From Cloeon dipterum (taxonomy: Eukaryota > Arthropoda > Insecta > Ephemeroptera > Baetidae): a stretch of 64,000 nt of DNA. The position numbers were made by a program, and so were the translations under genes. Location of the stretch: the NCBI RefSeq assembly GCF_949628265.1, contig NC_088788.1:15314001-15378000 (forward strand), written 5' to 3'. Shown in pieces: positions 34,201 to 63,756 of this stretch (the stretch's first letter is position 1; every line of letters begins with the position of its first letter). The notes below the pieces were generated by a model, which saw only the letters and a program-made list of their open reading frames with translations, was not told the DNA's origin and ran no database searches.

Positions 34201-37200
34201 GGGCTTAATGAGCCGGGTAAATAGCAGAGCCCGCTGGGAATTCCTACTTTCATGATGACGCAATCAAACTCAAGGAGTACATAATTTACACGTCCAGTTC
34301 TAATCTTATGGAATACGATTTGACGTTAAGTGTAAAATGCGTTATATAATGTTCTCTGGCAACTTGATAAAGTAAAACAACTGTTTGTGCACTGTATATA
34401 TTCGTTTTATGAATCCTTACATGAATATTTAATCAACAAGTTGATTCTTTGTGACACTAAAAAATTATTGTAGCTTTTGGCTCAATTCTGTATAATTATA
34501 CCAGACGTTAATCAAATTAAATAATAATAAAAAACGTTGGTCTAAATCAGTTGAGAAAACGGTAGAAATTGTATTTTTAATATTTGCACAAACACAATCA
34601 CATTTTTCAAAGTAAATAATAAAACTCTTGGCAGTCATGTCTCGTGAACACACGTTTCTGCCAGCAAACAAGGTTCCCTTCTAATTTAGTTGATCAAAAC
34701 AGCGGTGTCGAGAAATCGTGGGTCGATTTTAGAAACTATAAAGTAGCTGGTTAGCTGCATATTCATTAAAATGTATGTGTATCACATCTATTGGAGAAAA
34801 TGTTTATACTTTAAACCAGATAGTCACATAATTACATACTTAGTATATTTCAGGAATTAAATTGTGTTCCGTTATATGTATTTAAACTAGCCGTACTAAA
34901 ATTTTGATGAAAATTGATAAAAAAAAGGTGTTCACCTGAAACCCTGAGATATAAAAGTGCTAGGATTAATCTTGTCGTGAATACGTAAAAACTATGATCG
35001 GGAGGGTAAGACGATTTTTACGTTCATGGTTGGTTTAGATGGCCAATTTGGACGGTTTTCGACTGTTTTCCTAGAATTTTCTTTTCATTTGTTGCATTTT
35101 CAGAAGGAAGTGATTAATTTACTTGATTTTAGTTTCAAATAAAAGGAGCTTGAAAGTAAAATCTGGTTTTTTATTCACTGGTGACTTTTTCAATTTCTAC
35201 GAAAGCTGGATGAATCTCCAAACTATACACATATGTAGTGGTTGCGGAGCCGAGCTCCCACTCCTATTTCACTTTTGGTCTAGGTTATTGTTATTAATGA
35301 TTGTTAGAAGATATTTGTTAGAAATTCGTTAAAGCAACAGAGAGAGATTTTGAATTTAAATTAGTTTTCGCCGGAAGCACGAGCCAACAAGTCGCATCTT
35401 AAGATTTCCGATGAGAAGGACCCGGTTCATTCCGGGTAAATTCTTTTCTCATTTTAAATTGTTCTGCAAGTCAATTCTCTTAAACTATTAATTCTAAAGT
35501 CGAATATGAATTCTGTTTAAAGGTCCTTGTATTCTGTTAGGCTTAGTTTCCAAGTGACTGTCTTATAAAAGAGAAGAATTGTTCAAGATCCCGCCAGGTT
35601 TTATTTTCACCTCCTAACCCCCAAACATATGTGATATTTGAATAATCGACGCAGATTTAAAATGAATTAATCTTTTGAAAACCCGCTATGGAAAACATGA
35701 TTTATGTAGAGTAGATACCATTTTGAGAGTTTCGAGTGTGTTTTTACGGCTTCAGTACTTATAGGTGATTTGGAGGTTTTTTCAATTTTAACATGTTTTT
35801 GGCACCAAATATGGAATTAGATTATTATTGGTATGTGACTTAAAACTCTTAAAATTGTGTGATTCTATATCTCATTTGGCGTCTTAAGGTAAATCCAAAC
35901 TAAAAATATGAAAATTTCGAACATGCTATAGCTATAACCAAATTTGATAGAAATCATTGCAATTACTTTTTATTTTATTTATGTTTGTTTCCCATTTTTC
36001 CATTTCAAATAGCAATTCATGAAAGTGTTTGTGGATATAGAGTTTTACAGCTTTAACTTTGCAACACTAATTAAAATGTCATTTAGATGATAAAGAATAA
36101 AATACGCTTCAATAACTGGAAGTGCATTCATAACTCATTCTTCTTCCACCGTGGTCTGAAATAAACGTCAATTTTGTGTTTTTTCCTCGTTCACCAGAGT
36201 GTTTGTGGAGTGGTACTCGCGAGAGCAGCTAATTGAACATGCAAGTGGAGCAGACTAATATTCATTTTCCCCGAGGCGTAATTGCAAACTGGTTATTCCC
36301 AGCACACACTCAAACTTTTTTCCATTACTCTAACGAAAAATCAATCATTCCTCCACACATTCGTTCAAATGTTTGCCAAACGCGTGAATCAGAACAAATT
36401 TATGTTAAAATCACTAAAAACAAACCAGCATTTTTTGTTCGTTAGACGGGTCCATTGCGTAATAAAAAGCGAAAATTTTGCAGCACACACTCACGCGAGA
36501 CGGCTTTGATTTATTTGTGTTGGCGAAACAATATTATTTGCAGCGCCGGGCCGAACATGGAGCAGCAGCACGCGAGCGGCGTTTTTGCGACAGAGTTATT
36601 AAATTGGGGGCGACAGGGGAGGCTAAAAACTTTGGCAATTAATAACAAGCCCTTATCGCAGCCGTGAAATTAAGGAGACGAGGAGAAAAGATAGAAAGAA
36701 CGAACGTTTTTCACGAAATGACGTCCTCAGGGGTCAACATCGTGCGCCAGACATCAGCTTCGTCCTCCGCCGAAGCATCCCATTCCCGGCTAGGTCAAAA
36801 AATTCCTTCGTTTGCTCTTTAAATTTAAAATATTTTTGTTTAGCTATTTTAAAATAATTAAAACCAGGCTTCATCCTCGTTGTCAAATTAAAGAGAAATT
36901 CGTCTTCTTTATTTCTCGACCAGTTTCGACGTCACCAAGTACGTCCTAATCATGAGTTACAATTACAATCAAATAACAAACAATACAATAATGTCACATC
37001 TAAAATCATATAAATTCCATACAATTTTTAAAAAAAACACCCACCTATTCATGAGGCACTTGAGGCAAGCTCCAAAGACCAAATGTAACAAATTCTAAGC
37101 CACCCCTTTGTTAAATAACACGCACATCTCACAGGTGGTAGGGAACCTTTTTGTTCCGTGAGCTAAATTTTCCCCTTTCAGCGCGTAAAATATTTTTCCA

Positions 37201-40200
37201 CACATCACAAAGCAGGTGGCTTGGGTTACTAATAACGTTTTCTGAGCATTCCATTGCAACCGCCTCCAAAACTACCCTCTTCCACAAATTTGTTTCTTGC
37301 TTCAAAATTTCCACATTCTTCCAATCAAACGTATGTCCTTTTTTCTGTGCATGCCGCGCTAACTGGAGACCATTGTTCGTCGAGCTTCCAGTGCTTTTTC
37401 CTACGGCTCTCCTATGCTCATCTAATCTGTACTGCACTTGTCTCTTTGTTTGGCCAATATATACTGACGTGCAATCTAAACATGGCACTAAATAAATACA
37501 GTTTTTAAGTACTGGTTCCGATGGAGGTTTCACGCGCATCAACCGGTCTCTTAGGGAAAGTCCACTTGAGAAAACTACCCTCACATTTGCGATTTTCTTG
37601 CTGAAGTTTTTAAATTTTTCAGAAAACCCCCTCACAAATGGAACGACCACCGACGTTGAATGCACCTGCTCCTCCTTGTCCTCTCTTTTTCTCATCCACT
37701 TCCGGTATGCCTTCTTGATGAATTGTTTCGGATATCCGTTCTTCTCCAACAAACCAAAAATCGTGTTTATCTCCTGGTTCAAACTCAAACTGTCGCTGCA
37801 ATAGCCATGTGCCCGTCTAAACATGTTCAGTGCCACCGCCATTTTTGTTTCGCAACTATGATTTGAGTCATATTGCAAGAAACTATTTTCACTTCCTGGC
37901 TTCCTATACACCGTCAGTTTGACTTTGCCTTGTTCGTGTACTAGTAACATATCCAAAAAGGCGATTGACTTGTCCTTCTCCAATTCCAATGTAAGAGTTA
38001 TGTCAGGATGTACACTATTACAGCTATCCAAGAACTCGGCTATCGGAAAACATGCCTGGTCATAAATTACCAAATAGTCATCCACATACCTCCACATCAC
38101 TTTCGGTTTTTTTCGGAATTTCTCCAAGCATTTTCTCTCAAAATCCTGCATAAAAACTTCTGCGAGAACCGGGGACAGTGACGAACCCATCGCCAGACCT
38201 TTCTTCTGCTTGTAAAATTTTCCTTCGAAAATAAAGTATGTTGACTTCATGCTAAAATCTACCATTTCACATAACGTATCAATCGGAATCAATGTTCTCT
38301 CCATTAGCTTGTGATCTTGCATTAACTTTTCTTTCAGGATTTTCAAAACACTGTCTCTTGGCACCGATGTAAATAGACTTTTTACGTCCAGACTACAAAA
38401 ACAATCCGTCTTTCCTAAGCTCATTGACTTAATCATCGGCAAAATCTGCTCTGCATTCTTGATGCTAATAGCACTGTCATTTGTAATTGGACTGATCATT
38501 TTCACCAAAAATTTAGCCAGTGGTTGAAACGCTGAACCAATCGTACTCACAATTGGTCGCAAGGGAACTTTTTGGTGAAAATGATCAGTCCAATTACAAA
38601 TGACAGTGCTATTAGCATCAAGAATGCAGAGCAGATTTTGCCGATGATTAAGTCAATGAGCTTAGGAAAGACGGATTGTTTTTGTAGTCTGGACGTAAAA
38701 AGTCTATTTACATCGGTGCCAAGAGACAGTGTTTTGAAAATCCTGAAAGAAAAGTTAATGCAAGATCACAAGCTAATGGAGAGAACATTGATTCCGATTG
38801 ATACGTTATGTGAAATGGTAGATTTTAGCATGAAGTCAACATACTTTATTTTCGAAGGAAAATTTTACAAGCAGAAGAAAGGTCTGGCGATGGGTTCGTC
38901 ACTGTCCCCGGTTCTCGCAGAAGTTTTTATGCAGGATTTTGAGAGAAAATGCTTGGAGAAATTCCGAAAAAAACCGAAAGTGATGTGGAGGTATGTGGAT
39001 GACTATTTGGTAATTTATGACCAGGCATGTTTTCCGATAGCCGAGTTCTTGGATAGCTGTAATAGTGTACATCCTGACATAACTCTTACATTGGAATTGG
39101 AGAAGGACAAGTCAATCGCCTTTTTGGATATGTTACTAGTACACGAACAAGGCAAAGTCAAACTGACGGTGTATAGGAAGCCAGGAAGTGAAAATAGTTT
39201 CTTGCAATATGACTCAAATCATAGTTGCGAAACAAAAATGGCGGTGGCACTGAACATGTTTAGACGGGCACATGGCTATTGCAGCGACAGTTTGAGTTTG
39301 AACCAGGAGATAAACACGATTTTTGGTTTGTTGGAGAAGAACGGATATCCGAAACAATTCATCAAGAAGGCATACCGGAAGTGGATGAGAAAAAGAGAGG
39401 ACAAGGAGGAGCAGGTGCATTCAACGTCGGTGGTCGTTCCATTTGTGAGGGGGTTTTCTGAAAAATTTAAAAACTTCAGCAAGAAAATCGCAAATGTGAG
39501 GGTAGTTTTCTCAAGTGGACTTTCCCTAAGAGACCGGTTGATGCGCGTGAAACCTCCATCGGAACCAGTACTTAAAAACTGTATTTATTTAGTGCCATGT
39601 TTAGATTGCACGTCAGTATATATTGGCCAAACAAAGAGACAAGTGCAGTACAGATTAGATGAGCATAGGAGAGCCGTAGGAAAAAGCACTGGAAGCTCGA
39701 CGAACAATGGTCTCCAGTTAGCGCGGCATGCACAGAAAAAAGGACATACGTTTGATTGGAAGAATGTGGAAATTTTGAAGCAAGAAACAAATTTGTGGAA
39801 GAGGGTAGTTTTGGAGGCGGTTGCAATGGAATGCTCAGAAAACGTTATTAGTAACCCAAGCCACCTGCTTTGTGATGTGTGGAAAAATATTTTACGCGCT
39901 GAAAGGGGAAAATTTAGCTCACGGAACAAAAAGGTTCCCTACCACCTGTGAGATGTGCGTGTTATTTAACAAAGGGGTGGCTTAGAATTTGTTACATTTG
40001 GTCTTTGGAGCTTGCCTCAAGTGCCTCATGAATAGGTGGGTGTTTTTTTTAAAAATTGTATGGAATTTATATGATTTTAGATGTGACATTATTGTATTGT
40101 TTGTTATTTGATTGTAATTGTAACTCATGATTAGGACGTACTTGGTGACGTCGAAACTGGTCGAGAAATAAAGAAGACGAATTTCTCTTTAATTTGACAA

Positions 40201-43200
40201 CGAGGATGAAGCCTGGTTTTAATTATATTCAACATGAAAACAACCTCGAGTGGTCGCACTTTTCAAATATTTTAAAATAGTTTGAATTTTTAGAGAAATT
40301 TTGACATATTTAAAACAAATTTGTAATTGTAATTTTACAAAATTCAACAAAAAATTACACCGAATGGCTAATTTACGAAAGTCAAGGAGAAGGATGGTCG
40401 GTTGCAAGCAATTTTTTGTCACTTAACATATTTTGGGCTTCGCAATTACTTAAAATTCTACGGTTTCGGATTACTTTTTTAGGCATACTTGAAAAATAGC
40501 TGAAAAGAGAACTAAACGGTAAACCATGATCCCATAACATAACAATCGAGCCTTCGGGTTGATATTTTGTTGCTTGATTTTTGAGAATTGCCAAGCATTT
40601 ATCCGAATTATTCCCCTTAGAATGCAGTCAATGGGAAAATTTCCACGTGGCGCAACAAGTGCGGTACAGAACAACTCGGCACAATCAAAAGAAGAGGATA
40701 AACTTTTCCGCTTTTGTTGCCATTCGTCCGTGGTCGATGGACCGAAATTTCATTCCATTTGGCTCCGACAATCGAGAATCGTTAATAAATAAGTGCGCTC
40801 TGCTGCCTCTGGCTGGCTGGTTGGCGCAGCGGAGAGCGATATCAATTTTGTTCCCTCGCAACAGGCGGCGGCCTTGTTTGTAACAAACACAATGCAGCCA
40901 GCCGCACTGCGAGGCTATCCCTGTGGAATCGAGTGCGTTTTGCAGGGCCCGGCCAGGCTCACCGAGAATTAACTGGCGCGAGAAAGGGCCGCTCTGTTTT
41001 CCGCCCGCTGGATTTGCTTGTTGCGAGATGGATTTCTCAACAAGACGCTGTCATGCAAATCGATTCCGCCTCCACTGCTGGCGGGGGGCGCCTTCTTGCC
41101 TCTCGCCAGTCAATTCAACTTTTTCGATTGCTTTCCTATAGGTCTGTAGTGCAAACGCAAACCGCTCATCCCTTAATCCCCATTCCCTAAATGAGGAGCA
41201 TTTATTTCAATCAATTGGGGGTTGGAAATTCAAGTCGGTCAACTATTTATTTTTCAGGGTGTCTGATTTACGCAGCGCCGTGCCAGCCGGGCTAGCCGGC
41301 TAATTTGGGTCACGTGGTCAGCCGCAGTGAATTTGGCCAAGCTGTGTCAGCCACACCCGGCGCACCAGCCACCGGTCAAAAAATGAAAACTTTCCAGGGA
41401 AAATATTGGCCGAGGCCTTTAATCACAATCAAACTGCGCTTCTCAAAATTTGTCAGCTATGCCAGCCACCGGCAAAAATGTTCAGCCGCCGGCCCAGCTG
41501 GTTAAGCCAGCCACTGTCTAAAATTACGTGACTGAGACCTCTACTTATAGACATCAAATGAGTATGAATCACGCAATTTTCAGACTCTTCAACCATTTTT
41601 AAAATCGATTCAAACCGTCTTAAACTGTTTAAATCACTTGTAAAGTCTGATAATCATAAAAATGTAGCAGTGGAATTTCATTATTTGACTGTGTCCCGCG
41701 AATCAATCAGTCAAAAATTCGACACAACATGCTGAAAATCGACGGAAATGTTCATTCAGCGGATTTTGATCTGAGCCAAGCAAAAAGTGCCTCAAGGATA
41801 CTCGTGACCAATCAGAAAAGGAAGCGGTTCTTTGATTGGCTTTTTCACGTAGCGCTAGCCGAGAGTCTAGACCGCAGTTCCACAATGACAGCCACTGGAA
41901 GCGACCAAAGTCTGGATGCTGGCTCCCTGATGGGGCCGAAAAGTTTTTTAAAATAGAGAAGACATATGACACTCAAACTGAAAATCTTGGCTTTTTTCTG
42001 AAAGACTCTTTCTTGTGGTCCAGCTTGAGACAAAGCAAATAACGAACCCGTCTCAAACAAAATATCAATTTACACACTAATGCAATTGAAAAGCCGCGGA
42101 GCGTGAAGAGCAGCAGATCGGCGTTTAAGATTGATGAGCGTACACCCAAAAGCAAATCGAATGCTCCACGCCCTGCATTCTCGAAACATCATTCACGCGC
42201 GTCAAACGCATGCCTCTCGTAATTTATGCAAATGAGCACTCCTCTTTCTCGCCCACCAGTGCCGGCAGGAGAGAGATAGAAGGGAAAATTAAATAAGAAA
42301 GCAGCAGCGGGCGGCGGGCAAAAAAGCGACGCGCGCGCCTAATGCGAAAATTGATGAAATTGGCGCCGGCTTGCTGCTATCAGATTATATTTCTCTGTCC
42401 TACGACACGAAGACCGACCGGCGCATTGAATAAAGGGCTTATTGGGCACGCCGCTGGGCTGGGACACCTATCGAGCGCCTGAAACGCTTCGTTCGAAAAG
42501 ACCGTCTTTGATATAAGAGTATAACCAGCGACGCAAACAGGGCTGATGAAGAAACTTGGGGGAATTTTTTAAGAAATTGAATGATCCTAATTTAAATAAT
42601 TATTTTGATTTCCAAGGCAGGATTTAAATAAAAATTAGGCTGAGTATAGTGACTTTAAAATTGCGAGGTGACTGTTTGGGACAACAACATCGACTATATT
42701 TGATCTGTGAGTCTCATTTATTACTAGATCACAACAAGTAACGCGATTTCAAGACTTTTTAGACACTTAAAACCATCTAAAAGCCTAAATAGCCCCTTGG
42801 AAATGAGTAAAATAGTACAATTAGTTGGTGTAAAATGGAATAAAAATATATACATACAGGTAAAATCTTGATAAATGAAAGTTTTGGCTGATGAAACCTG
42901 TTGATTCAAGACATTTTTGGTATAGCTGATAAATATTTAACAGCTTAAAAAATTGTTTTTTCCGCTGAACTAACTTAACTGGCAATTAGTTATCCTCTTG
43001 AGCAATTAAGATAATCAAAACCCAGAAAAATTCCCGGTTATGATTAATTGTACTCAAAATTAATCAATTTAATGGTAATGAAATGGAATCTGATTTTGAT
43101 TTCTATAAGCGCTCTTAATAATGAAGTCTTAAAAATATTGTAACCTACTAAAATGTAATGCAATATTATGATTAGGTAAAATAGTTATAAGCAGCCTAAA

Positions 43201-49200: not shown

Positions 49201-52200
49201 TCCAGTTCTCTTTTAAGTTGTTTGCAAACACTCGCCCCTTTTGTCTCTGGCCGCTTGTGTAGCTTCACGCACGGAGAAAGAGCGAATTCGCATTTTCCGC
49301 CGCGTTTGCTCTGCAAACAGCAAAGTGTGCAACGGATGCTATTTGCGCCCGGCAAACAACGAGCAATAAATTCCCTCTTGTGTCCATCTATCTCCGAAAT
49401 TGTGTATGTGTGTGGTTCCAACTCATGTTCTATCCATCCTGCCCGGCCCGCGAGCAGTTCTGCGTGCATGCAGATAAGAGACAGATGCTGCAGGAGCTCA
49501 CCCATTCTCTGCAAACACGGCCTGACCGCTCCAACGTGCTCTGGGAGCTGGCCAGCTGCATCTGCTCGGCCGTCAGCGCCGACGGCTTCAGATTGTACCT
49601 GGCCGATCCCAACCTGGTGGGCGCTGACAACCTCAAGGGATCTGAACTGATTGGGCAATACCTTGGCCATGACCTCCGGTAGGATATAGTTAATTTTTTA
49701 TATTTCTCAACATTACATTGTAAGTCTTGTTTTGATATGAATATCCGCGTCCACGACAAATTGAATAATTTAGGTAATCTATTTCCTCAACTTAATTGCT
49801 AAAATGATTTTGCTCTTCAGATATGTTTTCCTATAGACTATATATGAAGGAATTTATATATTTCAGTCGCGGCTATATCACCCACGAAGCCAACTTTACA
49901 ATCGAAATTTTGTGCCAAAATAGTTTTTACAGACTCATACATTTGTAAATTGTCGCAATTATACCCTCCAAGCGCCATAGGATTGCTTATGAACGAGATT
50001 GTGGGCACGTCAGGGCGTGTCCTAAGCTCCCTGATGGTTTCTAAAGAGTAAAAATTTAACATATTTATTCTGAAAGCTCTCGACTTGGCCGTTACAACAG
50101 TGTTGATATTGCAAATCGAACCAATGCAAAGCCCACAGGCACCGGTAAAGTTGTGACACGTCTTGAGAATTTATAATTAATTATTGATCGCTCAAGGGCT
50201 ACCCTGACGCCAGAGTTCGATTGCTTTTGCTTACCTGTTCCGACGGTCTTGTCTGACCTCAGGACTCCTTCAAAAATTCCATTTTCCAACCTTAGACCCT
50301 CGGTATCTTAGAAACTAAGAGTTACTTCATTCTGAAAATTTCTGGGCATGTGACAAACACTTTGAACAACATTTCATCTCATAAATCGTTTTTTAATATA
50401 AATTAAAATTTAATAATAAACTCAAAAATGTCTTCTTGAGATATCCCCAAGTTGACAGTTAATTTCTTATCATAAACTAAGAAAATGCCAACATCAATCT
50501 CACTTTAATTTCTCCGCCTTTGTTGCTGTCAGAGCGGACAACGGAGAGCCCCTTCTGATTCCAATCAGCTCTCCGACGACCGTGCCTGAGTTCGTAGCGC
50601 GCAGTCGAGAACCTCTAAGACTTTCCCGCGGCTCCGGGGACCAAAGATTTCCCGTGCCGTCGCCTCGCTCCGAGGGAAAAGACGTACGTTCTCGCCCTCA
50701 GTGTTGAGTGTTTGTATATATATTTGTTTTGGTTTCGGTGTGTTGTTTGGCAGGACTCGGTGTTGGAGGCTGAACACGCGCTGTGGCAACCGATCGTGCA
50801 GGCCGACAGCGAGATGACCGGCGTGCTGTTCATGTGGAGGCGGCAGGGGCCCGCGTTCCATGAAGAAGACGAGGAGATTGCCCGCAGCTACCTCGTCTGG
50901 GGCGGCATTGCTCTGCACTACGCACAGCTCTTCTTATCCATCGACAAGACGCGCAGACTAAATGATTTCCTTCTCAAAGTAGTCAAGTAGGCCTTTTAAT
51001 GTTTTTTAGGCATGAAATTTTTAATTTAAATTGTCGCTGGGTACCAAAGTTATTGTGAAATTGAATTTTAGATTTCAAGATTTATTTTATTGCGTATCAG
51101 CAGAGCAACCTTTTTTATTGATAATTTGCGAAGCTTTCAAATTAGGATTTTCAATTATTTACTCAATGTGGGTATCTACTGGTGAATTCTTTATAACAAA
51201 TTTTACCTTTGCCTTTAATGTATACCTTTAATTTTCTATTGATATTAGGATAGAGGGGAAAGGCTAAAATTTTCCCAGATTGCCGTACAAATTTCCGAGA
51301 AATATGCATGAGAAATTTTCATGCTAATCAAGCAGCGAGCGCGAGCATTGAATTGTTTTGCAAGAAGTAAAAATTTGGCTCATAATTTGCACTGTTGGAT
51401 AGATCGCGATGAAATGAATCAAAATCAAGTGAAAAATATTTGATAAACTATTTAAGTTCTTTAGAAACTAGTCGAAATCTGAAACTTTATTAATTATAAT
51501 AATTGATTTCTAATGGTCTTTGATTTTTTTGTCTAAATTGAAATATTTATATTTAGGACCTCAAGTTTAATAGAACGAACTCTAAATATCCTAAAAATTT
51601 AGGAAATTCATTATTGATGCGCTTGGAACATCATAAATTTTCTCCAGTTTTATTGCTGTCAATGTTCTATTTACACATTGTTATTAACCTCATCATGCTG
51701 CTGGCATTGCGCAGATCGATTTTCCAGGACATGGTGAGCATGGACGCGCTGGTTGTTAAGGTGATGACCTACGCACAACGCCTGGTGGACGCGGACCGCG
51801 CCTCTCTGTTCCTGGTCGACTCGAGGAACAAGGAGCTGTACGCCAGGATCTTCGACATGGGCACCGACGAGGACAAGGACAGCGAGGAGAACTCTTCGAC
51901 GCGTGGCAAAGAGATCAGGTCGGCTTACCCCCCTAATCGGCTCAATGCACGTACTACAAAAAGCGTTCAGTGTGGGCGACTTTTATCGCCGTTGCTGGGC
52001 CGGCCGCTATTGTGCCAAGTCCGTTTCGCGCGGCAATCAGTAAGATCAATCGATCGGAGCGTAATGGCGTCCGCGTGTGCTGTGTGATCGGCAGATTTCC
52101 CTTGGGCACCGGCATCGCTGGTCAAGTGGCGCTGACGGGCGAGGTGCTTAACATCACGGACGCGTACTCGGACCCGCGTTTCAACCGCACTGTCGACCAG

Positions 52201-55200
52201 CTGACCGGCTACCACACCAAGACCATCTTGTGCATGCCCATCTTCATCAGAGGCATCATCATCGGGGTCGTGCAAATGGTCAACAAACGCTCCGGCCTCT
52301 TCACCAAGGTGAGACTCGCCCGGCAGAAGGCTGAAGGCTGAATTATTCATTTGGTGGTGCGACGGCTGCGGCGACCACCGTCACTGCCGCCGCTCGCCGC
52401 CCCTCTAAGAGGCTTACACTTACATAACACAAAAAGAGACGAACGCAAACACAAACACCGCACGCGCATATACTCGCACATACGCTTGTGTGTTTGCCTC
52501 TCTCGCTCTGCTCGTTGCGTGCGAGCGCATTTTGCGGCACTCTCGGGGACAGTGCTGGACCCAGAAGTGAGACAACGCAACTCAATTCTCGCTCGTAGAC
52601 AAAATAAATCAATTTGTCTTTGCAAAAGGCTTATGCTGTCCACCGTTCTCCGAGGAAGTCGTATAAATTCTTATTTGATTTATTTAGCAAGTATGCTTTT
52701 TTGTAACTGGATAATATATATCTTCTTGCAGATCAGACACGTAGACTATTTTAAAATTAAAATTTACACTTTGTTCATAGAGAGAAACGTGCAATATAAA
52801 ATAACAAGACATTTGCCGAAAATCTATCCTAAATCATTTAAGCTTTGATGTTTTGACAGATCAAATCTAAAAATAAATCTCTTGGTGGAATGGTAATTGT
52901 TTTTTTTTAATTGAACGCCTAGTTGAAATATTTGTGCTAGGAGAAATAAACAAATTTTGTTTTTATTGTCTCTCTTCATTTTTTTTTTTTAATAATTTCA
53001 ATATTGGCTTTACAGTTAGGTAAAAAATTTAATGCAAATTTTTACAGATTTAACATCACAAATATTTGTAGCTCTCAGTATATTAAGTTCATAATAATAA
53101 ACTGGAATATTAGCTTGATAAATTTGACATGAACCAAACCACGTAAATGTCTAAAGAATTTTGTAAAATCTTAGGTTCAATTGTTTAATATCCTATTGTG
53201 CATGTTGCAAAATATGTAAATTATTTTTTCTAATTTATTAAAAATATCATCAATAATTAAATAACTTGAATTAACCCAAAATTTCAAATTTTCAGTCCCT
53301 CCCCCACAATCCAAATAAATTGCAAGCATATGGTAAATGATCAGTCATCGATCAAAAGGGGATTTTTTAATTGCTTTTATCTTCGTTCGCGTATCAATGT
53401 TTTATTTTGTATTTCTGTTGATTTGGACTAATCAGACGCGCCTTGCAAAACCATAACAATCTCTCGCTCACTTCCCCCAAATTGTGTTGTTTACTTGGCC
53501 TCATTGGGGCTGCTTCCCTCGGCCCGTGACGTCACCGGGAGTAATCCGAGACACTCTATCGATTATGAATGCTCCACTTTTTTAAATCTCGGGACTCGCA
53601 TTGCACCTCTTTACGTGACTCATCTTTGTCCTCTTTCATCCAGGCAACGGCTTCCTCTCTTTTTCCAGTCCCGAGAGAGGTACAAGTGCATAATATTGAT
53701 TGGGAAATTGATGTTGCTGAGCTGCCGACAGTGTATTTACGGTCCCGTTCAATTACGCTCGGCTTATCACGAAAGCTGCGGAAATATGGCATCTATACCA
53801 GCTGTCCTGCTCATCGCGAAAGTAGATTATTTTTTCTCTCCTCTTGTAACAAGGAAAGTTTCGATGATAGGTTGTTAGTGCTGGTGAAGTACACATACTT
53901 CATTAAGTGGAAAATAGAAAACCAGGTATCTCATCTTTAGGGTTGGGAATTATAGACAAGTCGACCATTTTTACTTAGCGTCTAATAGATTTTCTTATAT
54001 GTACTCAAAAAATGATCACGAATCACTTTAAGCCAGATGAAAACACCTTAAAAATGATAATAATTTCAGTTAACTAAAAAGTTTTAGCTTTTCGGAACAT
54101 TTTGGTTTAGGTATCGTTGTTGCTGGCGCTTTTCCGATTAACTTCCGTCTTGCCAAAATTCATTGGAATCCTCATCACCAGCACGCGTCTTTGATCTCCG
54201 GCCGCGGACGCGCAAATATTAATTCAGAGAAAATTTTCGGCTTCCCACAGGTGAGACCTTGGGAGAGCAGTTGGTCGGCCTCAAAGAGCTCTAGGCAGGC
54301 GGAAAATAGGAAAATCGCGCTAATTATGCCCCAGCCGCTTCCGGCCGGGCAACAAAAGGGGCTCTCGCACTCGCACCCTCCGCAAATGGCCGAGTTGCAA
54401 ATTGTTTTCCGGTTGGCAGGAAGACGAGGAGGCGTTTGAGACTTTTGCCGTCTACTGCGGCCTGGCCCTGCACCACGCCAAGCTGTACGAGAAAATCCAG
54501 CGTTCGGAGCAAAAGTACCGGGTTGCGTTGGACGTGCTCAGCTACCACAACACCTGCTCCGAGGAGGAGGTGCGCATGATGAAACAGATGACCGACATCG
54601 ACCCTGGCGAGCCCGACACAGACACGTAAGTGTCAACAGCCACTTTCCTTGCATTCCAATAATTTAACTCAGTTTTCACGAGCTTGCAATGAGTGCGCTT
54701 ACAGCATGTGACTATTCATAAACTAATATACGTACTTGAATATTATTCACTAAAAATTAAAACGCAAAACATAGAATTTATTTAATTTTATTTTATTTTA
54801 GCACTTGAAACTTGAATTAAAATAGTTACATTCAAACGAATATGTTTTTACGATAAATGCAGCAAGTAGAAAGAGCTAATTTATAAATAGATTCAAAAAT
54901 GTATATGAAATGTATAGCATAATATATTTTTTACCAAATGTTGCAATTATCTTTATATCAATTTCACCCATATAAACGGCAACATGGCCATTTCATTGCA
55001 CTTCACAGGTTGTAACACTTTTGCAGATTTAAACCAGCAATTTTTTCCTGAAACCCGGATGCGTGTGATGTTAAATAGACCACCAGTTGAATATTTTCAA
55101 TCTAAAAAGAGACTAGATTATTTTTAAACTAAAAGCTTCAAATAAAAAACCTTTTATTGTTGTTTTCTCGAAATATCATGCAAGTATTATCTTTTTTATG

Positions 55201-58200: not shown

Positions 58201-61200
58201 GGTGGGATCACCGTCACTTGATGTTGCCAGTTATTACTTCAACATCTACTCGCTGGACGACATGAAGAAGGTGCGCTACGCCGTCTCCATGTTCAGCGAA
58301 CTGTTCGGCATGTCACGCTTTGACCAGGACAGCATCATCCGCTTCACGCTGACCGTGCGCAAGAACTACCGCCGCGTGCCCTACCACAACTGGGCGCACG
58401 GCTTCTCCGTCGCCAACTCCATGTTCTCCATTATCAAGCACTCAAAGACCATCTTTAAGCCCAACGAGGTAAGTGCACCACTTATGTCTTTAACCCATGA
58501 TCAAGGGGGAGTGTTGGGTCCCAAAGCGTTATTTCTCGATTTATACAATCACAAAGTGGTAGAAAAGTCTAAAAAATTGTAGCCTCTCTGTCTAAAATTA
58601 TTCTTTAAGTGGAACTTTAAATTTCTTCTCACGGCAGCCGTAATAATTGTCATATAATCAAGAAATTTTCAGATAATTCAGATAATAACTCCAAGCCCTA
58701 ACCCACCCCCTCCGCTTGTACAGCTAGAATTGTAAAAAAATGAAAATTTGTGCAGAGAGAGTAATAACAAATCTTGTTAATTTTATGAACATAATTTTCT
58801 TTTTATCAATATATTACTGTTAAGATATAAATTTCCATGCACCTTCCTTCCTTCCTTGAATAACCTCGAATCTATTTTCATAAATTTTCTTGCGTGTGCA
58901 TTTCTTCCAATATTTGTTTGTTGAATTTATTTAAGATGTTGCCTCAATTACCCTGATACAACCAAGATGTCTTACCTCATGGTTCAAATCTGACAATTAA
59001 TTTCAAAATGGCAACAGTCGTAAAAATATGAGTTGGTTTAGCCCCGCCCAATTATTCATTTTCTACTCCATCAACGATGTTTTTACTTTCCACCATCCAT
59101 AAAAATAGCTTCTTGTTTATCCAAAAGTGTCAACTTTTTCGCTTTTTATATTTCGTGTCAGAGACAGAACGGTGCTTTATTTTGGCGACTAAAAGCATCC
59201 CTCTGGTTACGAAACATTTTCCTCTCCGCCCTTCCAGTCTAGAGAATTTATTTTCCGCCCGATCAAGTGTCAGCCCTTTTTAAGCAAGAGGAAATGGTTA
59301 TTTTTATTTTGACAGTGCCTCGCGCTGTACATCGGCTCGCTATGCCACGACCTCGACCACAGGGGCAAGAACAACAAATTCATGCTGGACACCGAGTCTC
59401 CGCTGGCCAGCATTTACAGCACTAGCACCATGGAGCACCACCACTTCAACCAAACCATCACCATACTGCAACAGGTGGGCCCTTGTTCACTTCTGAATTA
59501 CCGTAAAGAGTACTTGGCATTTATTTCAACAGATAGCGCAAATTTTATGACGTTAGTTGTGACGGTAAAAAAATCCTCAGACAAAAAACAGTGGATATTT
59601 AAAATCTTTTTTAAGTGGAGAAACAAGAGTGAAATTTTTACATCAAATATATGCTTTTCTTGCTCTCTTTTGTGTCACATCGAATTGGGTTTCTCCTCAT
59701 ATATATCGGAAATTTTAATAAACAAACATAAAAGACTTCTTTTTGCGTGATTGACTACGCCGAATTTTACGAGACAGCAATATTGCACGGCTGACAGAGC
59801 GCAAATATTTGCAGGAGGGCCATAACATTTTCAGCAAGCTTAGCAGCGAGGAGTACAAGCAGGTGCTGTCCAACATCAAGCACTGCATCCTAGCAACCGA
59901 CCTGGCTCTCTTTTTCCCTAACAAGGCTCGACTGGCAAAAATCGTTGAGGACGACCAATTTTCCTGGACCAATCCCGAGCACAGGTTTTTACATTTGTCA
60001 ATAATATAATTGCCGCCAGATGAAATGGCGTGCTCGCCCACCCACCCAGATTTGGCAAATTGACTCAGTCTGAGAGAAATCTTTGCCTCTAGGGCGTTGA
60101 AATATGAAAGCAGCAATTTTGCTGTGAGTTTTAAAATAAATCACTGTGTATTTTTATTTTTACAAAGTGAGTGGAAGTTTGTCTCTAGAGCTCGATGTTT
60201 AGTTTTTTTTTAAATTAATTGCCCGGTAGATGTTTCAAAGTAATGGAATTTAAATGAGCATAAATCATGGTATTTCAAGCAATTTAGGTCCATATCAAAG
60301 TCAAATATTTTTGCAATTCTCAAGAGCAAATTTTCACTAGAGGTTGGTTACATTCCCCCCAATTTGATGAAAAAATCGTAGTCCTTATTCTACTCCTTTG
60401 AACGCTTGTCATAAATTTTCGTTCTGAAGTTTTTGAATCAACACTGGAATTTAAAGTAAATTGCTTTGTCGTGACGCAAAACGTAGTTCAGAACAGTGGT
60501 AAACATTTTAAACAAATCGTTTTTGCCAAGTTGTTTGCATTTCTTTGCTATATATGGGGTGGGTGAGGCAGAAACTCCACCTTTGCCGCCTTATATCCGC
60601 ATCGTGCCACAAACACAACTTTTTGTGTGTTTAGGTTGTTGCTCGAGGCAATCACAATGACAGCAAGCGACCTCTCCGCCAGTGCCAAGCCCTGGGAGCT
60701 GCAAGTAAAAACCGTAAAAGTGATTTTCGAGGAGTTCTACGAGCAGGTAAATCAATCGAGAGCGATTGCGCACTTGAGAAGAGTTCTCTCTCTTTTCTGG
60801 TGCGCGCAAACTTTGTCTCTCACTAATGGACCTGATTCATATGGAAATTGAGCAGTTTTCCAGCGGAAACTGAGTGGGTGAGCGCGGTTGCAAAGTGGCC
60901 TTTTCTTTTTTCCGTCTAGCTCGCCAAAAGGGAAAACTTTGTCGCTCTTAAAGCGCCATTTCAGCGCAGCCGTCTACGGCAAGTTTCAAATTTAATTACC
61001 GGGCTGCAGCTTGTTGCTGAAAGCCAGTTTAGTCAGGGGTAAACAGCGCTGCGTTTTCCTCTTATTTGCTCGGGCAGACATAATTGGCCTTGGTTAAACT
61101 GCTTATTTTCCCGAGACATGCTGTAGCATATGCATCGACAGGATTCTCTCGTCATTTTCAGGTTAAATCCTACATTTTTATAATGCCAGGGGCTTAAACA

Positions 61201-63474
61201 AATTTCTCTGCTAGTTTTCTTTTTTTCAGAAAATTAACGTCCAGTATTTCTTATTCTGGAAAGGATTTGAACCTACAGAAGTGAAATTGAATAATTAATT
61301 TCCTAAAGTGTTAAGATTTTATTTATTTAACTTTACCTTTAGAAAAGAAACAACAATTTTATGCTCAAGAAATTTAGCGTTATCATTTAGACACTACTAA
61401 ATTTGATTTCAGTTGAAATTCCTTGGACGATACAATTTTCATTTTCATCACAAATTTCATGTTGTAAATTAAGAAAATATTATCAGATTGTTACACTGAA
61501 AATAAGAAAACTTAATTTAAACTGGAAAATTATGACGTGCTTCTGCCCTCATCGGCATTTGCATAATTAAGTTTTTCATCTTTAAATTTTACATTATTTA
61601 AATTTTTATTAAACCTTCCCATATCTGTGAATTTCTTAAATGAAATAAACCTGGCCACCGTGTGTTTGTGATTGTCTGGCTTTAATGCATGTTCCAAAAC
61701 AATTAGGGTGACGCGGAAAAAGCCGCAGGCCGCAATCCCATTCCCATGATGGACAGGGAACAACCGGACCAGCAGGCCGCCTCTCAGGTTTGCACCATCG
61801 ATGTTCCTCCAGCATGAAGAAGAGCCGCATAATCTTTCTGAGTGTCTTTCGCTATCTCTACTTCTCTCTGTCCAAACTTAGTGTGTGCTGCAAATCACGA
61901 TTGCGGAGCTGCGCATTTTTGTCTTCATTTTAATTTGAACCTCTTGTTGATCATTCCAACAGAAAGGGCGTGATGAATTTTTTCTCTTAAAATCCAATTA
62001 CTATTTTAATTTTCGGAATTTTTCGGATTGCGTTTATATCCAGAGTAAATTTTGTTCTGAATTTGACTCAGTGTTAATGATTTTTCAAAAAAAAAAATCC
62101 TTTCTGTTGGCGCGTGTCTGACTTTTAACATTGCCCTGCTGTGACTAACCACCCTGCTCCTGCCATCTCTTCACCTGGGCGTGCTCACTTGTTCCAGGGT
62201 GATCAAGAAAAAATGGCCGGCCGCGTGCCAATTCCTTTGATGGATCGCGACAAAGAATCTGAGTTGGCCGAGATGCAGGTGAAAATGCACTCACCATATA
62301 TACATTTTACATTTTGAGGTTCACCTAACATCCAGACATCCCGTCTCTCATACATTCATATACATATATATTAAAACATTAACACGGATTGGTTACCACC
62401 GGGTGGTCAGTGGATTAATTTTGTTCTTGTTGGCCGGCGGTTGTTATTGCGGAAAAGTGCATACTATTTTTGTTTGCTTAACCACGGCGGTGACTAATTT
62501 TGATCATTCGCGGCACGCACGCCAGTTTATAACCTTCTGCCAGCTCTTCTTCTCGCATGTATATTTTTCTCGCACTTTCTGCAATTTGCATGCAAAATTG
62601 TCCTGCCACTTGACTAATCTCGTGTCGTCGATCCAAGCAGCTGCAATTCCTGTTTTATGGCGTTAAAATAGGTTTTTCTATTCCCCATTCCCTGATTTGC
62701 AAGGTGAGTGCGTAAACGAGTGTGATTAGCAAGCCAAAAATTGAGTAAAAAGGAAAATAAACCATAGGGGGTGAATTTAATTATTTTTTTGGTTGATCTA
62801 AAACCAAAATATCCTGACTGAAAAAGTAAAGGAGTCCTCAATTTTTTTGAAAATTTACTTTACTTGTAGAATTTAAGGTAAATTTAATGAATAAAAAGTG
62901 CAAAATGGAAAAAATGAAATTTTACAAATTTAAATTCCTCTGTGAACTCAATGAATCCTTTCATGACATGGCATAAATTATAGTTTCAAACTGAGTAATA
63001 GTTTAATGAGGCTAGACTGAAGTAATTGCGAGCTAAAAGTTAATCACATGAACTAGAAGTTTGTCTCTGCGTAACACAGTCACATCAGTCTTCATCTTCA
63101 AAGCAGCAGCAGCAGCAGCAAAGTTTACAACTCAATTATTCATGCTGCAACAAAATTGCAAAAAGGGAATGGAAAAGGCACTTCCATTAAGGGGGAAATA
63201 GAGAAAAATTGCATCCGCTTGGCGTTGACGGGAAAAAATAATCTCGCCTGCCTGTAAATCCCGGTGCGAGAAGCCGACGTTTTTTCTAATTAGCAACTCT
63301 CATTTTCAGGTTGGCTTCATCAACGGCATTTGCATTCCATGCTACTCGCTGCTTTATAAGCTGATGCCAGAGACCAAGCCGTTATTGGATCAGTGCAAGG
63401 CCAACCTGGCCCGCTGGGAGCAACTCAACGAGCAGCAGAAAAAGCTGCGCGAAAATAAAGCTACTCCATCGTGA
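14190..63474 (+). CDS. Pde10: PDE10-family cyclic-nucleotide phosphodiesterase, full gene
   Basis: Hydrolyses cAMP and cGMP. The long isoform joins 14190-14327, 15413-15677, 19468-19590, 47468-47524, 48366-48518, 48586-48623, 49458-49678, 50533-50683, 50754-50986, 51715-51918, 52095-52308, 54420-54625, 58171-58468, 59316-59474, 59815-59984, 60635-60746, one of 61707-61787 or 62198-62278, and 63310-63474: 2988 nt, 995 aa, every phase matching. Order: low-complexity N-terminus, conserved [18 protein letters not shown] segment, GAF-A (about 270-455), GAF-B (about 465-655) and HD-type catalytic domain (about 690-985) with [14 protein letters not shown] and MTASDL metal ligands. PDE10 rather than PDE5, 6 or 11 is indicated by [10 protein letters not shown] after [34 protein letters not shown] and the C-terminal ICIPCYSLL...PLLDQC. 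No prenylation CaaX motif at the C-terminus (ATPS). Confidence 0.93.
15413..15677 (+). CDS. Pde10: PDE10 N-terminal exon, Ser/Arg/Pro-rich
   Basis: Acceptor TTTGTTTGGGCAG, donor CCAG|GTAAGG, phase 0 in and 1 out. Encodes a disordered segment with [25 protein letters not shown], a basophilic kinase site RRDS (residues 104-107 of the long isoform) and TPPTPG. Introns on both sides are 1.1 and 3.8 kb. Confidence 0.65.
15678..19467 (+). other. PDE10 intron, 3.8 kb
   Basis: No gene seen. Holds a TC dinucleotide tract (16231-16268) and scattered GC-richer islands near 16020-16170, 17160-17330 and 18780-18930 in an AT-rich background, as in the other long introns. Confidence 0.5.
16231..16268. repeat. 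(TC)19 microsatellite
   Basis: Nineteen uninterrupted TC units following CCCCCTCC. Confidence 0.95.
19468..19590 (+). CDS. Pde10: PDE10 cassette exon with RRRS motif
   Basis: Excellent acceptor (CACTTTCTTTGCAG) and donor (CAG|GTAAGT) surround 123 nt that are open in phase 1-1, so inclusion or skipping preserves the frame. Encodes [17 protein letters not shown], then RRRSDSF and a basic stretch. RRRS is a PKA/PKG-type consensus (Ser156 of the long isoform). Only this frame is compatible with exon 15413 and exon 47468. Inferred as PDE10 from phase and position. Confidence 0.65.
19591..27870 (+). other. PDE10 long intronic region, 8.3 kb
   Basis: No convincing exon. AT-rich with GC-rich blocks near 20440-20700, 22240-22560 and 24700-25150 that resemble regulatory or promoter-like islands. 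A CAGCC-rich stretch at 21780-22000 resembles one at 41270-41520. Confidence 0.4.
27871..27946 (+). CDS. Pde10: PDE10 alternative first coding exon B
   Basis: ATG preceded by GGCCAAG, 25 codons plus one base ([19 protein letters not shown]...), donor CAAG|GTGAGC, phase 1 out. It can splice to 19468, 47468 or 48366 without changing frame. Spliced directly to 47468 it gives an 845-aa protein. A GC-rich leader precedes it, with a 7-codon uORF (ATG at 27834). No acceptor adjoins the ATG, which fits a first exon. Confidence 0.6.
27947..31871 (+). other. PDE10 intronic region, 3.9 kb
   Basis: No gene seen. Contains an AT-only palindromic run (28654-28680). The last 300 bases, 31580-31871, are GC-rich and probably the promoter and leader of exon C. 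Confidence 0.45.
28654..28680. repeat. AT dinucleotide-like palindromic run
   Basis: Alternating A and T, self-complementary, able to form a small hairpin. Confidence 0.7.
31872..31944 (+). CDS. Pde10: PDE10 alternative first coding exon C
   Basis: ATG in context CATGCC, 24 codons plus one base ([17 protein letters not shown]...), donor AACG|GTGAGC, phase 1 out, so compatible with the same downstream acceptors as exon B. Upstream lie CACGTGATAAAAG (E-box plus TATA-like) near 31782-31795 and a GC-rich leader with a short uORF at 31839. The amphipathic Trp/Arg-rich N-terminus could favour membrane association, but this is speculation. Confidence 0.5.
31945..36853 (+). other. PDE10 intron upstream of the Penelope-like insertion
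   Basis: No gene seen in 4.9 kb. GC-rich, CpG-rich block at 33640-34060 may be regulatory. A short perfect hairpin (ACCCGG...CCGGGT) lies at 35420-35437. Confidence 0.4.
36854..38511 (-). repeat. Left arm of the 1658-bp inverted repeat
   Basis: Reverse complement of 38569-40226, with identity apparently complete from CACCAAAAA at the centre to ATAATTAAAACCAGGC at the outside. Confidence 0.9.
37129..38562 (-). CDS. Penelope-like RT/GIY-YIG polyprotein fragment, left copy
   Basis: A 477-codon frame lacking the N-terminus. In order: RPIVS (about residue 2), [11 protein letters not shown] (RT motif A, about 60), [17 protein letters not shown] (motif B), YVDD (motif C, catalytic aspartates), IAFLDMLL, then a C-terminal GIY-YIG endonuclease with [16 protein letters not shown] and H residues and a possible CCHH zinc finger. 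It is 5'-truncated with no true start codon (the frame begins at a TTG), so it is not an autonomous element although the catalytic core is intact. The stop lies outward, 275 bp from the element end. Confidence 0.88.
   Translation of the reverse strand: MRPIVSTIGSAFQPLAKFLVKMISPITNDSAISIKNAEQILPMIKSMSLGKTDCFCSLDVKSLFTSVPRDSVLKILKEKLMQDHKLMERTLIPIDTLCEMVDFSMKSTYFIFEGKFYKQKKGLAMGSSLSPVLAEVFMQDFERKCLEKFRKKPKVMWRYVDDYLVIYDQACFPIAEFLDSCNSVHPDITLTLELEKDKSIAFLDMLLVHEQGKVKLTVYRKPGSENSFLQYDSNHSCETKMAVALNMFRRAHGYCSDSLSLNQEINTIFGLLEKNGYPKQFIKKAYRKWMRKREDKEEQVHSTSVVVPFVRGFSEKFKNFSKKIANVRVVFSSGLSLRDRLMRVKPPSEPVLKNCIYLVPCLDCTSVYIGQTKRQVQYRLDEHRRAVGKSTGSSTNNGLQLARHAQKKGHTFDWKNVEILKQETNLWKRVVLEAVAMECSENVISNPSHLLCDVWKNILRAERGKFSSRNKKVPYHL
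38569..39951 (+). CDS. Penelope-like RT/GIY-YIG polyprotein fragment, right copy
   Basis: Same protein as the left copy from FLVKMISP onward. It lacks the RPIVS motif, because the truncation lies some 20 residues further in. An in-frame TGA at 38533 in the spacer closes the frame upstream. All RT and GIY-YIG residues match the left copy. Confidence 0.88.
   Translation, partial: FLVKMISPITNDSAISIKNAEQILPMIKSMSLGKTDCFCSLDVKSLFTSVPRDSVLKILKEKLMQDHKLMERTLIPIDTLCEMVDFSMKSTYFIFEGKFYKQKKGLAMGSSLSPVLAEVFMQDFERKCLEKFRKKPKVMWRYVDDYLVIYDQACFPIAEFLDSCNSVHPDITLTLELEKDKSIAFLDMLLVHEQGKVKLTVYRKPGSENSFLQYDSNHSCETKMAVALNMFRRAHGYCSDSLSLNQEINTIFGLLEKNGYPKQFIKKAYRKWMRKREDKEEQVHSTSVVVPFVRGFSEKFKNFSKKIANVRVVFSSGLSLRDRLMRVKPPSEPVLKNCIYLVPCLDCTSVYIGQTKRQVQYRLDEHRRAVGKSTGSSTNNGLQLARHAQKKGHTFDWKNVEILKQETNLWKRVVLEAVAMECSENVISNPSHLLCDVWKNILRAERGKFSSRNKKVPYHL
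38569..40226 (+). repeat. Right arm of the 1658-bp inverted repeat
   Basis: Partner of 36854-38511. It begins slightly further inside the element than the left copy. Confidence 0.9.
40227..46000 (+). other. PDE10 intron downstream of the Penelope-like insertion
   Basis: No gene seen. GC-richer stretches near 40780-41130, 42170-42500 and 43580-43930 alternate with AT-rich sequence. CAGCC-rich stretch at 41270-41520. Confidence 0.4.
41270..41520. repeat. CAGCC-rich low-complexity region
   Basis: Repeated CAGCC/GCCAGC words, including a segment AAAATTTGTCAGCTATGCCA that resembles AAAATTTGTCAACTACGCCA near 21917. The two stretches may be copies of one dispersed repeat. Confidence 0.35.
46001..46222 (+). 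repeat. Left arm of an old long inverted repeat
   Basis: Pairs with 46434-46647 over about 220 bases with interspersed mismatches and small indels, roughly three quarters identical by eye. Shared blocks include CCTAATTCATGAGCTA, GTTTCAATTAG, AACAACCTAGT and TAACTCCTTT. The loop is about 210 bp. It looks like a foldback or MITE-type element remnant. No reading frame inside. Confidence 0.6.
46434..46647 (-). repeat. Right arm of the old long inverted repeat
   Basis: Reverse-complement partner of 46001-46222. The outer end is GAAGAAT-like in both arms. Confidence 0.6.
46648..47467 (+). other. End of the long PDE10 intron
   Basis: No gene seen. Ends in the pyrimidine-rich acceptor of exon 47468. 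Confidence 0.45.
47468..47524 (+). CDS. Pde10: PDE10 57-nt cassette exon
   Basis: Acceptor TTCTGTTTCAG, donor AATG|GTAAGG, phase 1-1. Encodes [18 protein letters not shown] after a split Val codon. It joins smoothly to exon 48366 (G|GT GCA AGC), and skipping it keeps the frame. Confidence 0.75.
48366..48623 (+). CDS. Pde10: PDE10 exons 5 and 6: conserved N-terminal helix region
   Basis: Exons 48366-48518 and 48586-48623. The first encodes [31 protein letters not shown] and a Lys-rich stretch, the region that precedes GAF-A in PDE10 proteins. Its donor (ATG|GTTTGC) is weak. The second, 38 nt, encodes [12 protein letters not shown] with a basophilic RKTS site and ends in phase 0. Confidence 0.85.
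49458..50986 (+). CDS. Pde10: PDE10 exons 7-9: GAF-A domain
   Basis: Exons 49458-49678, 50533-50683 and 50754-50986. They encode [21 protein letters not shown], the middle segment [21 protein letters not shown], and the end [19 protein letters not shown] with [15 protein letters not shown], then the linker [14 protein letters not shown] of PDE10 is a regulatory and dimerisation module. The middle exon is short and Arg/Ser/Pro-rich near its end ([14 protein letters not shown]), more diverged than its neighbours, but its phase (2 in, 0 out) fits exactly. Confidence 0.85.
49838..50306 (-). CDS. Unassigned minus-strand two-exon frame nested in a PDE10 intron
   Basis: Exon 50306-50235 (acceptor TTTCTAAG, donor ACAG|GTAAGC) and exon 50040-49838 (acceptor CTCTTTAG, stop TAG) join in phase to an open frame of about 90 codons with varied, protein-like composition, for example [27 protein letters not shown] and [16 protein letters not shown] do not recognise the family. 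No upstream exon was found, so it may be the 3' fragment of a captured gene, or chance. Confidence 0.25.
51715..54625 (+). CDS. Pde10: PDE10 exons 10-12: GAF-B domain
   Basis: Exons 51715-51918, 52095-52308 and 54420-54625. Landmarks: [70 protein letters not shown] and [18 protein letters not shown]. The NK-F-DE signature that marks ligand-binding GAF domains is present (NKRSGLF...EDEEAF). In vertebrate PDE10A, GAF-B binds cAMP, and the same is likely here. Exon 12 also encodes the linker [16 protein letters not shown] before the catalytic domain. Confidence 0.92.
52309..54419 (+). other. PDE10 intron between GAF-B exons, 2.1 kb
   Basis: No gene seen. Contains a perfect CRE palindrome TGACGTCA (53527-53534) in a GC-richer island. 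Confidence 0.45.
53527..53534. promoter_or_regulatory. Consensus cAMP-response element (TGACGTCA)
   Basis: Perfect 8-bp CREB-type palindrome in a PDE10 intron. An 8-bp match is expected by chance about once in 65 kb, so function is speculative. Confidence 0.2.
54626..58170 (+). other. PDE10 intron before the catalytic domain, 3.5 kb
   Basis: No gene seen. Holds a (CA) tract at 57038-57054. GC-richer stretches near 55860-56000 and 56590-56750 contain open frames but no splice-compatible exon. Confidence 0.45.
57038..57054. repeat. (CA)n microsatellite
   Basis: Short CA tract of eight units. Confidence 0.8.
58171..60746 (+). CDS. Pde10: PDE10 exons 13-16: catalytic domain, metal-binding part
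   Basis: Exons 58171-58468, 59316-59474, 59815-59984 and 60635-60746. HNWAH supplies the proton-donor His and the first metal His, LCHDLDHRG the next His and Asp, and [13 protein letters not shown] the last Asp of the two-metal (Zn/Mg) site. [12 protein letters not shown] and [14 protein letters not shown] are strongly PDE10-like. Ends with the helix IFEEFYEQ immediately before the duplicated exon pair. Introns inside (about 850, 340 and 650 bp) hold nothing recognisable. Confidence 0.95.
60747..61706 (+). other. PDE10 intron upstream of the alternative exon pair
   Basis: 960 bp with no gene seen. It would be one place to look for the docking or selector sequences used by mutually exclusive exons. 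Confidence 0.5.
61707..61787 (+). CDS. Pde10: PDE10 exon 17a: alternative M-loop exon
   Basis: 81 nt, phase 0-0, acceptor AATTAG, donor CAG|GTTTGC. Encodes [18 protein letters not shown], a variable stretch QPDQQ and ends ...ASQ. It aligns with 17b without gaps (15 of 27 residues identical). It covers the loop over the active site (M-loop) and the final Gln aligns with the invariant glutamine that contacts the purine base. The second half is unusually Gln-rich for the family. Confidence 0.85.
62198..62278 (+). CDS. Pde10: PDE10 exon 17b: alternative M-loop exon
   Basis: 81 nt, phase 0-0, acceptor GTTCCAG, donor CAG|GTGAAA. Encodes [18 protein letters not shown] and ends SELAEMQ, closer to the usual PDE sequence than 17a. 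It is separated from 17a by a 410-nt intron. Including both would insert 27 residues without a frameshift but duplicate part of the catalytic fold, so use of one or the other is expected. Confidence 0.85.
62279..63309 (+). other. Last PDE10 intron, about 1 kb
   Basis: No gene seen. A (GCA)6 tract lies at 63103-63120. Confidence 0.5.
63103..63120. repeat. (GCA)6 microsatellite
   Basis: Six uninterrupted GCA units. Confidence 0.9.
63310..63474 (+). CDS. Pde10: PDE10 terminal coding exon
   Basis: Starts [18 protein letters not shown], directly after the invariant Gln encoded by exon 17a or 17b. The Phe of VGF is the conserved hydrophobic clamp residue facing the purine. Then [25 protein letters not shown], and TGA at 63472-63474. 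Slightly shorter than vertebrate PDE10A, lacking its low-complexity tail. Confidence 0.95.
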   Translation, partial: VGFINGICIPCYSLLYKLMPETKPLLDQCKANLARWEQLNEQQKKLRENKATPS

Positions 63475-63756
63475 ACGGCAGGCTCTTCAACCCCCTCCCT
63501 GCCTGCTCATTGCGCCCGCCGCAAATAGTTGAGAGCTGCAGCAAAATAATGCAAAAATACAACATGTTTGTCTACTTTCTCACACCGACCGATGATAAAA
63601 ATTTGAGACGAAACTACGCTTAATGTCCATAAATGTGATCGTGATCCTGATAATATATTTAATAATAACTGCTGAATGTCTAATTTCGTGGAAATATGTA
63701 CTATTATATAATTATACATTGTGCATTTATCGAGAAAGGGAAGGAGGTTAATATGA

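Follow-up and report, generated by a model that had tools for sequence, protein, structure and literature searches.

We report that a PDE10 gene of the ephemeropteran insect Cloeon dipterum, predicted to encode a phosphodiesterase that degrades the messengers cAMP and cGMP, carries two adjacent, homologous exons, here called A and B, that encode the same part of the catalytic domain, the M-loop. The gene lies in a stretch of 64,000 nucleotides (nt) of contig NC_088788.1 (RefSeq assembly GCF_949628265.1, forward-strand positions 15,314,001 to 15,378,000), referred to below as the window, in whose own coordinates all positions are given. We consider it likely that a tandem exon duplication in PDE10 has produced two alternative M-loop exons, of which each mRNA carries one, and that the choice between them changes a wall of the active-site pocket. 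A and B are a real and probably functional pair of alternative active-site-loop exons, which would probably allow the insect to produce the enzyme in two versions.

A duplicated exon at the M-loop of PDE10

Exon A (61707..61787) and exon B (62198..62278), both on the forward strand, are each 81 nt long with phase 0 on either side, and are separated by an intron of 410 nt (61788..62197, forward strand) with GT-AG borders, in which a CTAAC motif 49 nt before exon B (−49) is a candidate branch point. Read from the sequence, both exons have GT-AG borders and CAG/GT donors, in phase, and a home-made spliced alignment with the B-form catalytic protein as query placed the borders of exon B and its neighbours at the same positions, again with phase 0 on both sides. 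The encoded peptides are identical at 15 of 27 residues in a gapless alignment, with a BLOSUM62 sum of 77. This score was reached by none of 100,000 shuffles (top shuffle, 44), and among the open AG-81 nt-GT segments of the window, 53 on the forward strand (A and B included) and 50 on the reverse strand, the runners-up scored −7 and −3 against B. Chance is excluded as the source of the A-B resemblance.

Both exons align gaplessly to human PDE10A and end in the invariant Gln, residue 726 in the human numbering used throughout; anchored on this residue, they span human residues 700–726, the M-loop. Identity to the human protein over the 27 residues is similar for the two (13/27 for A, 14/27 for B), and A and B have four residues in common that human PDE10A lacks, which suits a duplication within the arthropod line, 27 residues being too short for a tree. 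The sequence criteria for a mutually exclusive exon cluster are equal length, phase 0-0 on both sides, GT-AG borders and homology between adjacent internal exons, and all are found here. A preliminary description of the window had claimed this arrangement, from the length, phase and gapless identity of the exons and the size of the intron to the M-loop location, the terminal Gln and the hallmarks of mutual exclusion, and it is borne out in each of these respects. Tandem duplication of the M-loop exon within the gene would have given rise to a two-member alternative cluster, and a mature mRNA would most likely carry exactly one of A and B.

Searching the 190-Mb genome with exon A or exon B as query returned only the query itself and its partner (partner E ~0.02); no third copy was found among the best first-look candidates, which are the only ones that this search scores, at E up to 10. 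For the other catalytic exon pieces (E1–E4 and E6), no second copy was detected in the window, the top non-self tblastn match having an E of 0.076. Matches to the Pfam family PDEase_I, grouped by reading of the match list, fall at eight places in the genome, and the seven loci other than the window PDE10 have one M-loop each, with no second copy in a tblastn search with the B form at E up to 1, from which a diverged copy could escape.

Predicted effect of the exon choice on the active-site pocket

Passages of the literature on PDE10A assign the walls and gate of the selectivity pocket to Tyr693, Met713, Pro712 and Gly725, and describe Met816 of PDE5, the counterpart of Gly725, as occluding that pocket, the latter from modelling of one inhibitor (PMC4694998, PMC12571622, PMC5962708). 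A passage of PMC13095499 ascribes to the H- and M-loops a presumed role in controlling substrate entry and notes that they can shift when an inhibitor binds. Of the three active-site residues that the literature names within the exon, two are not the same in A and B: position 713 is Met in A (as in human PDE10A) and Leu in B, and position 725, Gly in human, is Ser in A and Met in B, with the third residue, Gln, kept in both. Exon A keeps Pro712, Met713 and Gln726 of the human protein; in the second half of the exon, B agrees with human at 717, 718 and 721, where A departs. In the seven paralogues, the residue before Gln is Ser in three (L010, L012, L014), Met in two (the PDE5-like L011 and L013), Ile and Leu in one each, and Gly in none.

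Exon choice would reset the pocket wall beside the purine-binding Gln. A (Met713/Ser725) would leave a small residue before Gln; B (Leu713/Met725) would place a PDE5-type Met there, closing the PDE10 selectivity pocket. The form with A would most likely be an open-gate PDE10 and the form with B a closed-gate one. Inhibitor sensitivity and M-loop movement, we infer, should be the first properties to differ between the forms, and the Michaelis constant (Km) or the ratio of activities on cyclic adenosine and guanosine monophosphate (cAMP/cGMP) may differ as well. Exon E4 of the gene encodes Phe in place of human Tyr693 and Gln in place of human Thr685; human pocket data therefore carry over only in part, the pocket being already unlike that of the human drug target. 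A bolder version, in which splicing toggles between a PDE5-like Met725 and an open Ser725 gate as an ancient switch, widespread among insects, by which each tissue would set its substrate preference and its sensitivity to drugs, strikes us as rather unlikely.

The two exons might also be mutually exclusive and functionally equivalent, with a tissue-linked choice that leaves catalysis unchanged, which is a sub-case of the splicing claim favoured here and is opposed to its functional part only. The like scores of A and B against PDEase_I and human PDE10A, and their near-equal distance from the human protein (13 and 14 of 27 identical), speak for equivalence, whereas the exchanges at two of the three active-site residues, Met/Leu 713 and Ser/Met 725, speak against it, and we regard it as unlikely. 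PDE families are told apart to a considerable extent by residues around the purine-binding Gln and by the M-loop. If A and B do form a pair of isoforms that change the pocket wall, they would amount to a natural experiment in which the lid alone differs, one that could reveal the part of the M-loop in substrate choice and inhibitor selectivity, and splicing would tune a cyclic-nucleotide signalling enzyme within its active site.

Both copies appear to be under selective constraint

A and B agree at 16, 19 and 13 of 27 first, second and third codon positions, with 33 of 81 nt differing. When these 33 differences were placed neutrally on either copy in 20,000 simulations, a mean of about 8 identical residues was retained, and 15 or more in at most 0.01% of cases; a stop-free frame survived in about 40% of simulations and is weak evidence by itself. 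Because the observed amino-acid identity lies far above the neutral simulations, both copies look alive, and neutral decay of exon A or of exon B is very unlikely.

These results bear on the proposal that a single exon is used and that its neighbour, A sooner than B, is a defunct or decaying duplicate passed over by the spliceosome. Exon A has a lower donor score than B (3.57 vs 6.59) and a lower pyrimidine fraction (0.42 vs 0.63), and it departs from human PDE10A at 717, 718 and 721, all of which would fit decay. Amino-acid identity, on the other hand, has P ≤0.0001 under neutrality (the open frame by itself, P ~0.4), the CAG/GT and AG borders are kept in phase on both exons, and A fits PDEase_I as well as B does, with Pro712, Met713 and Gln726 retained; we find a dead duplicate quite improbable.

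An unbroken catalytic domain is obtained with one exon

Scored against PDEase_I, the protein with A alone (267.0 bits) and with B alone (265.7 bits) matches profile positions 1–238 in a single stretch. The form with neither exon scores 214.2 bits in two stretches, and with both exons the match is likewise split in two. That an unbroken domain requires exactly one of the two exons speaks for the use of a single one in each mature transcript. In Drosophila, according to passages of PMC3228551, just 6 of 1,705 genes of the X chromosome contain neighbouring homologous exons of the same frame whose use is not mutually exclusive, and of 65 predicted internal exons, 26 had previously been annotated as mutually exclusive and 39 were new predictions. 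Exclusive splicing of A and B is, on this evidence, likely.

Splicing signals around the exon pair

Each exon is preceded by a long zone free of AG, at 61572..61704 before A (133 nt; a candidate regulatory and branch-point region) and at 62072..62195 before B (124 nt), both on the forward strand. Among the 3,386 AG-free stretches of that strand of the window they rank second and fifth, and stretches of at least 122 nt number 7 of 3,386 there, 3 of 3,366 on the reverse strand and 11 of 5,816 at the paralogue loci (both strands). At other PDE acceptors the AG-free stretch measures 13 to 61 nt (four acceptors of this gene) or 1 to 83 nt (32 acceptors of the seven paralogues, whose borders are partly uncertain, coming from alignment at 30 to 47% identity). 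Zones of at least 100 nt thus occur at 2/2 A and B acceptors and at 0/36 others (Fisher p = 0.0014, post hoc). Passages of PMC1431707 report that alternative splicing is commoner among human exons with AG zones of at least 100 nt and that every experimental example of a distant-branch-point exon is alternative; large AG-exclusion zones unrelated to splicing also occur. The long zones before A and B are a sign of alternative splicing that is independent of their homology.

Exon B, whose donor and pyrimidine tract are stronger, would probably be included by default, with A as the exon under regulation, and regulators would probably act in the long AG-free zones. Several means of enforcing the choice were considered and rejected. 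Steric hindrance between A and B finds no support, as candidate branch points in the 180 nt next to B are all at least 250 nt away from the donor of A. Nor does long-range intron pairing: the top duplexes between intron 4 and the A-B intron were equalled by 10 of 20 shuffles and those between the A-B intron and intron 5 by 16 of 20, and pairing of intron 4 with intron 5, equalled by none of 20 shuffles at first, was equalled by 6 of 80 further ones. The donors look U2-type by eye, and Rfam gave nothing at gathering score in 60500–63600. With steric block, frameshift and intron pairing all unsupported, we infer that the A/B choice would be regulated in trans, through the AG-free zones, and this is the least certain step of our account.

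Two TGCATG sites, which we take to be Rbfox-type motifs, lie at 61686, just upstream of exon A, and at 62587, downstream of exon B. Their number in the A/B region (2 vs 0.76 expected) goes with no excess over the whole window (36 vs 41 expected), and Rbfox-type sites as regulators of A and B are a weak lead.

Weighing the evidence for exclusive use

A number of points weigh against exclusive, regulated use of A and B. The comparison of AG-free zones was chosen after the long zones before A and B had been noticed; branch-point candidates also occur at conventional distances (−21 for A, −49 for B), and the zones may be incidental. Signals as weak as those of A also occur at a constitutive exon of the gene, E3, which has a donor score of 0.88 (3.57 for A) and a pyrimidine content equal to that of A. 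No physical safeguard of the known kinds (steric block, U2/U12 mismatch, frameshift, competing RNA pairing), which are not obligatory for exclusive splicing, was found at the A/B locus. Synonymous divergence between the exons (NG86 dS 2.09, with a non-synonymous dN of 0.44) is close to saturation (LWL85 13.5, maximum likelihood 2.5). The evidence consists of genomic sequence, a point that also counts towards a dead duplicate. Finally, the exon length of 81 nt is divisible by three, and neither double inclusion nor skipping would be removed through a frameshift, and the form with both exons has the highest summed PDEase_I score of the four (274.9 bits), though split. These last two points, together with the ordinary GT-AG borders of the 410-nt intron, would also suit the inclusion of A before B in some transcripts (54 residues instead of 27), or of both exons in all, which we think still less probable than decay of one copy, given a domain match that falls into two stretches, a second loop and Gln set inside the fold, and the rarity of such non-exclusive exons on the Drosophila X chromosome (6/1,705 genes in the portion of PMC3228551 cited above).

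Gene identity and other features of the window

The closest relative of the spliced catalytic domain in the Protein Data Bank (PDB) is human PDE10A with either exon (290.2 bits with B, 286.7 with A), ahead of PDE5 for the B form (250.7 bits) and a PDE5/6 chimera for the A form (245.8 bits), as judged from the best 60 of 150 rows. By this measure, with PDE10A the nearest of the solved PDE families, the gene is PDE10, the name that it had been given beforehand. The paralogue loci L011 and L013 are nearest to PDE5 and the PDE5/6 chimera, L010 to PDE4 and L015 to PDE2, and no second PDE10 was seen among these four, which were the ones compared with the PDB; L009, L012 and L014, left out of that comparison, are 30 to 33% identical to the window PDE10 protein. 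In the PDE4-like L010, a phase-0 intron (4103–4249) lies at the same Gln/Val-Gly-Phe place as the right border of A and B; in the PDE5-like L011 and L013, the M-loop is split before (Ala/Asp)-Met-Met instead. The genome also has at least 94 matches to the cuticle-protein family Chitin_bind_4 and 5 to the odorant-receptor family 7tm_6, families typical of arthropods and of insects, in agreement with its insect origin.

The remaining catalytic exons all lie on the forward strand. E1 (58235..58468, its upstream border provisional) has the donor GAG/GTAAGT; E2 (59316..59474, phase 0-0) encodes the metal site CHDLDHRG; E3 (59815..59984) ends in phase 2 at CAG/GTTTTT, the weakest of six donors scored; and E4 (60635..60746), with Phe at the position of human Tyr693, ends in phase 0 at CAG/GTAAAT. 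The spliced alignment places the last coding exon, with its stop codon, at 63310..63474. Upstream, one of five open frames (51937..52341, forward strand) matches GAF (46.7 bits, profile 47–115 of 133) and probably belongs to this PDE10 gene as its upstream portion; the other four match no Pfam family.

Elsewhere in the window, a perfect inverted repeat has arms at 36848–38514 and 38566–40232, each of 1,667 nt, which are 100% complementary and lie 51 nt apart, and is either a very young palindrome or a fold-back artefact of assembly. A direct tandem duplication of about 2 kb (1–2030 and 3825–5851) is 77 to 97% identical in blocks, at an offset of about 3.82 kb.

Comparison with known systems

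In pyruvate kinase M (exons 9/10) and ketohexokinase (exons 3a/3c), equal-length, homologous, exclusive exons swap an active-site or allosteric region; the element swapped here differs, being the M-loop of a phosphodiesterase. The A/B pair resembles the distant-branch-point exons of tropomyosin and alpha-actinin, as treated in passages of PMC1431707, in the AG-free zones of more than 100 nt before both exons, and differs in that its branch points are motif candidates, some of them at conventional distance (A −21, B −49). With mutually exclusive clusters as defined in Kassiopeia/WebScipio, arthropod Mhc and Dscam among them, it shares neighbouring internal exons that match in length and phase, homology and a conserved splice pattern (in the parts of PMC3923563 and PMC3228551 that deal with them); unlike those of the Mhc and Dscam type, it lies in a cyclic nucleotide phosphodiesterase and is known here from genomic sequence.

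Mammalian PDE10A, the top PDB relative with either exon, has the same gapless M-loop and the same invariant Gln, and differs from the insect enzyme, which has Phe for Tyr693, Gln for Thr685 and, depending on the exon, Ser or Met for Gly725. The passages of the PDE10A literature examined describe no isoform of the human enzyme in which the M-loop exon is exchanged, and PDE10A, PDE and phosphodiesterase are absent as whole words from the main text of a paper on human mutually exclusive exons (PMC5740500). Among the titles and abstracts listed in searches of the open-licence literature, one of which concerns splicing factors of PDE3A, there is likewise no mutually exclusive exon pair of this kind in PDE10 or another phosphodiesterase, which agrees with the view taken in the preliminary description that none had been described. 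The type of switch is well known; its occurrence in this gene and at this position appears to be new within the open-licence literature.

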